Shown: piece by piece, positions 46,677-50,155 of the stretch | Numbering within the stretch: the first letter of the stretch is position 1 | Layout: every line of letters begins with the position of its first letter | Assembly: GCF_002177135.1 (NCBI RefSeq) | Contig: NZ_MWPH01000001.1 | Coordinates: forward strand, 124,001-188,000 | Source: Natronolimnobius baerhuensis | Lineage (GTDB): Archaea; Halobacteriota; Halobacteria; Halobacteriales; Natrialbaceae | Direction of reading: 5' to 3' | DNA length: 64,000 nt | The notes under the pieces: generated by a model | What the model saw: only the letters and a program-made list of their open reading frames with translations | What the model was told of the DNA's origin: nothing | Database searches by the model: none | Made by a program: the position numbers and the translations under genes

Positions 46677-47405
46677 TCAGGCTGCGTCGGGCTGTGACTC
46701 GGACTCGAGGTGGTCCGGGTCGGATCTAAGCGAGAGCAGCCGTCGGTTCTGTGCGGTCTCGGCGAGCGCGTCTCGACTCCGAAGCACGATGCCACCAAAG
46801 CCGATGACAATGATCGCTTCCACGTAGATCGCGAGGAGTTGGCTGATAAAGTCATCAGTCAGCGCTGCTGCCTCGCCGAGCATGCCGGTAACGACGAGTG
46901 CAATCCAGCCGAGAACGATGAGATTCCGCAGTTTCGTATAGAGGAGCCGTCGCTCCCCGCTGACCCCTGCAACTGCCTGCATGAACGGGCCGAACAGCAG
47001 GTAAATCCCGGCAGCGAGCAACACGAACGGCGCAAGCGTCAGGATCGTCCCAATCGTTCCCTCGAGTTGCCAGCTTGCGTAGGTCACCCACAGGCGCGCA
47101 AGCACGATGGCGAGCAACGCAGCGGTGAGGCGGCGTCCAGCACCGGCAACGCCAGCGACCACGAGACAGATCATGCTCCAGAGGCCAGTGTAGCCAGCGA
47201 ACCGGATGAAATCTGTTTCAAGTGCCGCCATGTCGGCAGCGCCCATCAGTACGTACGAGACGGTCATCGTTCCGGATGCAACGACAGCGGCGTATCCGTA
47301 GTGGCGCCCCATCGCAGGCAAGCTACGGGCACTCCACAGGAGCACCAGCGTCGTCAGCCCGAGAACGCCTGCAGCGGCCAACGTGATCAGATGCGTTTCG
47401 ATCAT
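46677..47405 (-). CDS. Opsin homologue lacking the retinal Lys (sensory rhodopsin II-like)
   Basis: A 242-residue seven-helix protein that aligns along its length with sensory rhodopsin II. Best-conserved parts are '[12 protein letters not shown]', '[14 protein letters not shown]' (E-F region) and helix G '[15 protein letters not shown]'. In helix G the retinal Lys (K205 of NpSRII, in 'YLDLVTKVGFG') is V200 and the preceding Asp is E196. Helix C, 'AGYTGLWSM', has no Asp at the counterion site. The only Lys in the protein is K158, in a loop. Tyr at the NpSRII Y199 position (Y194), which contacts the transducer, is kept. Encoded with and overlapping (ATGA) an HtrII-like transducer. Cannot form a normal retinal Schiff base. 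Confidence 0.9.
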
Positions 47406-49075
47406 CGAATCGCACCTCCGCTCGCCGCGATCCGTCGATTAGTGACGGTAAACGCATCGAGCAGTTCGCGAAGGTCGATTGCATCGTCCTCGAGTCCGGT
47501 TGCCGTCCCGGAGACAGTCTCGATTGTCGCCGTCGTCTCCTCGGCTGCGGCAGCAGCCTGCTGTGCCGTACTCGTCGTCTCGTTCGAGACGGCCGCCACA
47601 TCGTCGACAATCGTCGCTAACTCCTGGGCCGAGTCAGCCTGATCGTCAGCCGTGTGCGCGATCTCCTGAATGCTTTCGTCGACGTGTTCGACTTGGCTAG
47701 TGATCGTCTCCTGTCGCGACTCGAGGTCAGCGACGAGCGACGCCGTCTCCTCGAGTTCGGCATCGACCGTCGTAATGTCGGCTGCCGTCGCTTCGGTCCG
47801 ATTGCGGATCGACTCGAGTGTCGTCTCGATTTCGTCGACCGCGTCCATCGTCTCCTCGGCAAGCGATTTGATCTCGCTTGCGACGACCGCGAAGCCGTCG
47901 CCGTCCTCGCCGGCCGTTGCCGCCTCAATCGAGGCGTTCAGCGCGAGCAGGTTCGTCTGATCAGCGATGTCGTCGATCAACGCGATAATCTCGCCGATTT
48001 GGTCGGTTTCACGCTCAAGTTCGTCGACTCGGTCAACGACGGTATTGGTGTTTTCGACGAGCGAGTCCGTCGTCGTCGCGGCGGTCGCCGCCACGGACTG
48101 GCCCTCAGCGGCGAGCGCTGCGACTTCCTGGGACTGGTCTGCGATGGCGGCCGTCGTTGAGGCGACTTCCTCGGTCGCCGCCGAAAGGTCGCTGACCTCA
48201 CTCGCTGCGACATCGAGTTCTTCGGTCTGTGATGCTGCCCCCTCTGCGATTTCCTGAACAGAGGTTGCGACCTCCTCGCTCGCATCTCGGATCTGCCCGC
48301 TCGAGTGCTGGAGTTCGGTCGCTGCGTCTCCAACCGTCTCTGCGGACGTCTGGATTTCAGTAATCGTCTCGGTCATCGTGTCGACCATCTCGTTGAACGA
48401 GTTGGCGATGGCGACGATTGCCTCGTTATCCGTGGTCGGCTCGAGGCGCTGGCTGAGGTCGCCGTCAGCGCAGGCGTCCATCGTTTCCGAGAATCGTTCG
48501 GCTTCGGCGATCAACGCCTCGTTTTGCTGTTCGACTTTCCGGCGGGTCTCCTCAACGCGCTGTCGTTCCTGTTCAACTTCCTCGGCGCGCTGTTCGGCGT
48601 CCTGTTTGGCCGCCTGTGCACGCTCTTGCTCGGCCTCGAGGTTCGCAACTGACTCCTCGAGCGAGTCGCGCATTTCCCCAATCGTGGCGTACAACTGCCC
48701 GATTTCGTCGATTCGATCCGTCTCGAGGTCGACGTCGAACTCGCCGTCACCGATCTGTTCGGTTTTCGAACTGAGTTGCTGGAGCGAGAGTGCAGTGTTG
48801 CCGCCGGTAACGATACCGAACAGGCCGAGATTCATGAAGAAAACCACCAAGAGACCAGTCAGCGCGCCAATCGCGCGGTTCGTTGCTTCCTCGGCTGGAC
48901 CCGAAGCGACGTAGTAACCAAAAATAACGCCGAACGCGAGTGTCACGGCGATAATCACCCCAAGCGAGGCGGTAATTTTCGTGCTGTACTGCCGACGGAT
49001 GTGCCGTGGGACGACGGCTGTGGTCGTCACTGGCGCCCCCCGTGTTCTGTCTGTGTGCCCATCATCGTTTCTCAC
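47402..49075 (-). CDS. HtrII-like methyl-accepting chemotaxis transducer
   Basis: A 557-residue transducer, GTG start 49075 (a GTG at 49030 is possible). Two membrane helices (about 33-56 and 68-90) have a very short extracellular loop, the sensory-rhodopsin-transducer topology; no ligand-binding domain lies outside. TM2 keeps the Asn ('[20 protein letters not shown]', N82) that pairs with the opsin Tyr in NpSRII/HtrII. Two HAMP-like segments follow, then the long helical signalling domain with the tip '[18 protein letters not shown]'. It would control CheA and flagellar (archaellum) switching. A leaderless promoter (AATTATCC on its strand, 49097-49104) sits 25 bases before the start. Confidence 0.95.
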
Positions 49076-49297: not shown

Positions 49298-50101
49298 CTA
49301 CGACAACTGGTCGTCTGCCTCGAGTGCTGTTGCACTCTCCCAGTACTCGTCGATTCTGTTGTGTGCCCACGAGTGAACCGCTTCGTCGTCGGTATCGACC
49401 GACGCTCGCAACACGCCGTGGTCGTCTCGCAGCAGAAAGTACACGATGTCGTCGATGATCATTGCAGCAATCGGCACACCGTCGGATCGAACACGAACCG
49501 TCGCCCGGTCGTTCTCGAGAAGTGTTTGAAACTGCTTATTCAGCGCTGTATCGGCTGCGAGTGCGTCAATCGCATCCTGCGAAAAAACGCCCTCGAACGT
49601 TTGTTCACCAGCGGCGGTCCGTTCACGGACGACAGTCAAACTTTGCTCGTTGAACGCATGCGAGACGGCTCGGACGCTGTCTCCGTCCTGAAGCAGCGAG
49701 AGCAGACGCTGGAGCGGTGCGTTCGGACGCGTCTGGGTCGGCAGCGTAATCGTCGCATCCGACAGTCGCCGAATATCGAAGTCGAACGCTGCGGCCGGCA
49801 GATACTCGACGATTCCCCGCAGTTTGCGCTCGGTCTCGAGGATACGCTGTAAATCCTCGAATCCCGCCGCGACCAGTTGGCCGGTTGCTGTTGCCGTATA
49901 CTCGCTGCCCGCTCGCGTGATCCATGAGCGCTCCGCGAAGTCACTCAGAACACGCCCCAGCGTCGCCTGTGACGCGCCGGTCTCAGCAGCCAGTTCGGTT
50001 CGCGTATAGCTCCCCGTAGCGAGCAACCCGAGGACTGCAACCCGATTCGACGACAGGGACAGAAACTCGATCTCCTCGAGTGACGCGTCCGACGGTTCCA
50101 T
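49298..50101 (-). CDS. Winged-helix transcriptional regulator (haloarchaeal GlpR/FilR1-like)
   Basis: A 267-residue protein from ATG 50101 (an ATG at 50143 adds 14 residues but overlaps the palindromic site). The N-terminal HTH is 'SNRVAVLGLLATGSYTRTELAAETGASQATLGRVLSDFAERSW', followed by a C-terminal sensor domain ('AAFDFDIRRLSDATITLPTQ', 'DGDSVRAVSHAFNEQSLTVV', 'GVPIAAMIIDDIVYFLLRDDHGVLRASVDTDD'), the methanogen/haloarchaeal FilR1/DUF1724-like arrangement. It is upstream of and co-oriented with the opsin-transducer pair, 223 bases away. Its palindromic site suggests autoregulation. Confidence 0.88.
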   Translation of the reverse strand: MEPSDASLEEIEFLSLSSNRVAVLGLLATGSYTRTELAAETGASQATLGRVLSDFAERSWITRAGSEYTATATGQLVAAGFEDLQRILETERKLRGIVEYLPAAAFDFDIRRLSDATITLPTQTRPNAPLQRLLSLLQDGDSVRAVSHAFNEQSLTVVRERTAAGEQTFEGVFSQDAIDALAADTALNKQFQTLLENDRATVRVRSDGVPIAAMIIDDIVYFLLRDDHGVLRASVDTDDEAVHSWAHNRIDEYWESATALEADDQLS

Positions 50102-50142
50102 ACGCTGAGTCTCTCCTGTATCGACAAAGTGCTTTCGCCCCA

Positions 50143-50155
50143 TGAAATAATTTCA
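50143..50155. promoter_or_regulatory. Palindrome TGAAAT-A-ATTTCA
   Basis: A perfect 13-base palindrome with a single central A, 42 bases upstream of the regulator's ATG at 50101. It is a plausible operator (or TATA-containing promoter, as it reads AAATTATTTC on the minus strand) for autoregulation. Binding is inference. Confidence 0.45.

Follow-up and report, generated by a model that had tools for sequence, protein, structure and literature searches.

How an opsin could go on serving as a receptor after losing the lysine that holds retinal, and what it might then respond to, is the question raised by a pair of genes from Natronolimnobius baerhuensis. They lie within a 64,000-nucleotide stretch of the genome (contig NZ_MWPH01000001.1, positions 124,001 to 188,000), here called the window. 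Both are on the minus strand and both reading frames are intact. The first encodes a transducer of the HtrII type with two transmembrane helices, a HAMP domain and an MCP signalling domain (47402..49075) and the second a type-1 opsin homologue of 242 residues (46677..47405). The two share four bases, ATGA (47402..47405), in which the TGA of the transducer runs into the ATG of the opsin, so that the layout which the preliminary description had likened to that of sensory rhodopsin II (SRII) and HtrII is indeed present, and the two proteins may be translated in a coupled fashion. The transducer likely starts at a GTG near 49030 (V16), giving 542 residues, because its orthologues start some 7–9 residues ahead of a P-x-R-I-R-R-x-Y-S motif.

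The opsin scores under the cut-off of the Pfam family Bac_rhodopsin, and 11 of 18 orthologues match that family at E ≤ 1. Against SRII of Natronomonas pharaonis (NpSRII) it gives a phmmer match over residues 5–214 (E 2.5e-5). Similarity to NpSRII had been noted through helices E–G; it holds there but is not confined to them, spanning all seven helices. An AlphaFold2 model (pLDDT 85.3, pTM 0.82) has NpSRII (3qap) as its best Foldseek match (E 4.6e-8, TM 0.78–0.86, rmsd 2.3), and VIA-align of the model to SRII chains gives a Z of ~25.9. When superposed on solved rhodopsins the model has the seven-helix type-1 fold, though the opsin is only ~22% identical to SRII in the structural alignment. With orthologues, a fold and a dN/dS ratio (see below) to its name, the gene is not an artefact or a chance reading frame.

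Residue equivalences were taken from an alignment of 89 opsins with NpSRII. The site of the retinal-binding lysine, Lys205, is occupied by Val200 (codon 46806..46808, minus strand, counted, as are those below, from the ATG at 47405), so the helix-G lysine needed for covalent retinal is missing. Asp201 of helix G is replaced by Glu196 (codon 46818..46820) and the helix-C counterion, Asp75, by Gly71. Trp76, Phe127, Tyr174 and Trp178 have become Tyr72, Thr123, Leu170 and Gly174, respectively. Retained are Tyr51, Arg68 (Arg72 in NpSRII), Trp167 (Trp171) and Tyr194 (Tyr199), while Asp184 falls at position 189, a threonine in NpSRII. No other lysine is available in helix G, as the whole protein has just one, Lys158. 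The alignment bears out the preliminary description on Val200, Glu196, the missing counterion aspartate and the single lysine. Lys158 sits where helix F begins on the cytoplasmic side, within an L-L-x-x-K-L block, and is part of a conserved cytoplasmic stretch of that helix (Arg152, Leu154–Leu155, Lys158, Leu159).

The output interface of the complex has been kept. The transducer matches the Pfam families MCPsignal (3.4e-38) and HAMP (5.4e-17) above their cut-offs, and a search with its first 150 residues hits NpHtrII in solved structures of the SRII/HtrII complex (5.6e-23), in agreement with the proposed pairing with an HtrII-type partner. Asn82 on TM2 aligns with Asn74 of NpHtrII, so the asparagine that faces Tyr199 of helix G has been kept together with the tyrosine, as proposed; Asp184, Arg68 and Tyr51 are retained as well among the receptor–transducer contact residues. 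With the N. pharaonis system the pair therefore shares the fold, the gene order, the four-base overlap, the HAMP domain, the Tyr199–Asn74 contact and a two-helix transducer with almost no extracellular domain. The signalling tip appears intact and output would be through the HAMP domain.

The preliminary description regarded a lysine-less archaeal receptor with its own transducer as a distinct system. Such receptors have been in print since 2016, when 48 lysine-less opsin-related proteins (ORPs) were reported from 80 haloarchaeal genomes (Becker et al, 2016; PMC4915679). These were divided into group A, with an arginine at the lysine site, and group B, with a hydrophobic residue; a HAMP/MCP transducer adjoins 17 of the 32 group B members. 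Transcription was reported, modelling gave a novel cavity open to the extracellular side, and taxis to non-light stimuli was proposed (PMC4915679). The window opsin has the hydrophobic residue (Val200), has lost the residues around the retinal ring in the way group B has (Trp178 to Gly, Phe127 to Thr or Ser, Tyr174 to Leu), keeps the equivalents of the signalling residues Tyr51, Arg72, Tyr199 and Asp189, and adjoins a HAMP/MCP transducer. Group B is monophyletic and lies beside the sensory opsins in the tree, as does the window opsin (see below). As every group B feature that could be tested is present, the pair, judged by its sequence, is a group B ORP system and the supposed new system is one already described. 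Group A proteins are also lysine-less, coupled to transducers and in the same clade of the tree, but have arginine in place of lysine and different pocket residues. Eight of these arginine-type ORPs (L054, L055, L057, L058, L061, L110, L111 and L112) have a four-base overlap with transducers of 750–785 residues, ~200 residues longer than the HtrII-like ones.

To place the opsin among its relatives 149 related haloarchaeal genomes were searched, 52 of which contain opsin relatives. In a tree calculated with the lysine column masked, and without Becker's own sequences by accession, 72 lysine-less opsins form one clade (support 100/100) that is sister to SRII, with a single change from lysine to another residue. 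The tree shows that the lysine-less opsins derive from SRII-like sensory opsins, the Schiff-base lysine having been lost once. The conserved lysine-less clade that had been anticipated is thus real: none of its 72 members has the lysine, which rules out isolated decay from a lysine-bearing orthologue. Two lysine-less opsins on long branches have a histidine at the Schiff-base position (L113, 5934–7271; L059, 813–1592).

Within the clade the window opsin belongs to a subclade of 20 members from the Natrialbaceae (100/100), set apart from group B in general by Glu-201, Arg-108 and Asp-69 (NpSRII numbering). Glu196, Asp65, Arg68, Tyr72, Trp76, Arg104, Thr108, Gly174 and Tyr194 are invariant in it; all 20 members have glycine at the counterion site and valine, leucine or isoleucine at the Schiff-base site. 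Lys158 is also invariant, as it is in the arginine-type ORPs, the remaining ORPs having lysine or arginine. Carriers include Natrialba, Natronorubrum, Natronolimnohabitans, Halopiger and Salinadaptatus, and among 392 genomes sampled from the order the strong matches to a profile of the subclade (E < 1e-98) all come from the family to which the window belongs. Scanning genome contigs with the single opsin protein as query gave no match, while an alignment as query gave 10 loci. The subclade probably already lay within Becker's group B, since Natronolimnobius (now Natronolimnohabitans) innermongolicus, a genome named in that study, carries a member (L142). The main text of that paper makes no mention of Asp201 or of a glutamate, and a full-text literature search that took in few of the subscription journals found no later work on ORP function after 2016. 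What appears to be new, relative to that main text and the later papers found, is the Glu/Arg/Asp subclade itself and its altered but conserved pocket.

That pocket was examined at 19 positions which we take, from knowledge of the NpSRII structure and not from distances on the opsin model, to surround retinal. Conservation was expressed as mean pairwise identity at these positions compared with all other transmembrane positions. In SRII the values are 0.84 and 0.54. In the glutamate subclade they are almost the same, 0.83 and 0.52 (P < 5e-5, column permutation), and the difference remains significant when the sequences are thinned to 65% identity (0.82 against 0.50). Despite this, the subclade consensus is the SRII residue at only 2 of the 19 positions, the other 17 having been rewritten. 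The other D-type group B ORPs, when pooled, give 0.56 against 0.47 (P 0.065), and one transducer-rich group B subgroup falls in between (0.79 against 0.61, P 0.003). Asp65, Arg104, Gly133 and Glu196 do not vary within the subclade and hardly occur elsewhere; Arg104 (codon 47094..47096) takes the place of Val108 in the part of the NpSRII pocket around the retinal ring. The residues both rewritten and fixed are Gly71, Tyr72, Trp76, Arg104, Thr108, Leu170, Val171, Gly174 and Glu196. In a decaying light receptor the pocket would be left to drift, and here it has changed and then been held, which argues for a re-purposed site that is under selection.

The genome encodes 12 MCPs, a CheA/CheW cluster and archaellins, and the host probably swims by chemotaxis. 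It would seem most likely that the pair is a non-photic sensory complex that feeds CheA. The fuller reading that we favour on balance is of a retinal-free complex in which the group B ORP is the receptor, the HtrII-type protein its transducer, and a polar or charged ligand binds at the rebuilt pocket. The ligand would probably be small and polar. It, rather than light, would reach the site lined by Arg104 and Glu196 and shift helices F and G in a movement similar to that of SRII; this may in turn move TM2 of the transducer, then the HAMP domain and the signalling tip, altering CheA activity and archaellum switching, with taxis to a chemical stimulus as the net outcome. Against this reading, the strong conservation of the pocket could reflect the packing of a buried salt bridge instead of ligand binding. 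That all members of the Glu196/Arg104 subclade are chemoreceptors for one class of ligand, an SRII-like retinal pocket having become a fixed charged site with an HtrII-type readout, is a more tentative proposal. If it were true, a type-1 opsin would have turned into a chemotaxis receptor, a prokaryotic counterpart of ligand-gated GPCRs.

The main rival also starts from the charges. Asp65, Arg68, Arg104 and Glu196, four charged residues within or close to the membrane that are invariant among the 20 members, could respond to voltage, pH or an ion such as chloride, and the response could be passed to the transducer with no ligand involved. Loss of the counterion aspartate with retention of arginine and glutamate would leave an ionisable cluster at the site of proton transfer in SRII. 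A charge pair alone, on the other hand, has no obvious need for the fixed Trp76, Tyr72, Gly174 and Thr108 at the old ring site, and we consider a physical sensor of this kind unlikely, though it is the strongest of the alternatives to a ligand-gated complex.

An opsin was counted as paired if an MCP gene on the same strand lay no more than 400 bp upstream. By this measure 41 of the 72 lysine-less opsins are paired, 12 of them among the 20 subclade members, so the expectation that they would always be paired did not hold. Where there is a pair in the subclade the spacing is always −4 or +2 bp (12 of 12). The groups on the transducer tree match those on the opsin tree, the 12 paired subclade transducers and one orphan (L068) forming a single clade (99/94), and the trees show the lysine-less opsin and HtrII-like transducer to have descended together. 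Compared with the closest relative both window genes are under purifying selection, as had been predicted, with Nei–Gojobori dN/dS values, which are simple pairwise estimates on high-GC sequence, of 0.21 for the opsin (dS 0.87) and 0.15 for the transducer (dS 0.82).

The eight subclade members without an adjoining transducer are from Natrialba, L032 and L088. Most are still conserved, so that signalling through a transducer in cis is not the sole role under selection. Around the Natrialba copies, which lie at a conserved site, a search for remnants of a transducer gave nothing; most pairs of these copies have a dN/dS of ~0.21–0.26, with L091/L100 at 0.46 (dS 0.11). At L032 (5006–5919, genome G057) a stub of 27–35 residues from the start of a transducer lies upstream of an open ORP, which evolves faster (dN/dS 0.50 against L101). 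At L068 (4937–6841, genome G042) the receptor has been lost and the transducer kept: the latter is intact and 73% identical to the others, and beside it only residues 157–242 of the ORP are left, with an internal stop. Either half can therefore go and the opsin can persist alone. L068 and L032 are what might be expected if the opsin merely stabilised the transducer, or were a slowly decaying relic kept by the structure of the operon. Elsewhere, though, the ORPs have a dN/dS of 0.2–0.26, even where there is no transducer in cis, as in Natrialba, and their interior is the most conserved part of the protein. An opsin that does not sense, or is slowly decaying, would seem quite improbable.

Lack of retinal does not account for the loss of the lysine. 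The genome has a single canonical opsin (contig C2, ~669–673 kb; L084, L114). It looks like a halorhodopsin by its motifs in helices C and G, and it adjoins a gene for a brp/blh-type beta-carotene dioxygenase, on which basis the host is able to make retinal; the lysine was therefore not lost for want of it. A photoreceptor is unlikely, and a light sensor with non-covalently bound retinal or another chromophore highly so: the fold, a source of retinal and the equivalents of Trp171 and Arg72 are all there, and, as PMC4915679 discusses, engineered K216 mutants are known to work with non-covalent chromophores, but the pocket aromatics Trp76, Tyr174, Trp178 and Phe127 of NpSRII have given way to Tyr, Leu, Gly and Thr or Ser, an arginine has entered the ring site, and two ORPs expressed with excess retinal had no band at 480–580 nm (PMC4915679).

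What the retinal-free haloarchaeal opsins respond to has been a question since 2016, and the subclade offers a defined receptor with residues to mutate, in a host whose own chemotaxis and archaellum genes offer a direct behavioural readout for the pair. Should a ligand be found, the microbial opsins could no longer be regarded as a family devoted to light alone.

The members of the subclade lie at two conserved chromosomal sites (L090–L102, L032). The site of the window type adjoins an HVO_A0261-type regulator, in the window an HVO_A0261/FilR1-type gene upstream of the pair (49298..50143, minus strand), and an EamA transporter. At the second site the neighbours are presumably genes for prephenate dehydratase (pheA), PheRS beta and LeuRS. 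A functional role was considered for these neighbours and for a member of the uracil/xanthine permease family, and all, the conserved regulator included, were taken as plain synteny. At four loci in Natrialba and Natronorubrum (L044, L045, L037 and L033) an ORP, a transducer and a second ORP follow one another in a row, and in most of these two more MCP genes come next on the opposite strand, forming a multi-receptor sensory cluster.
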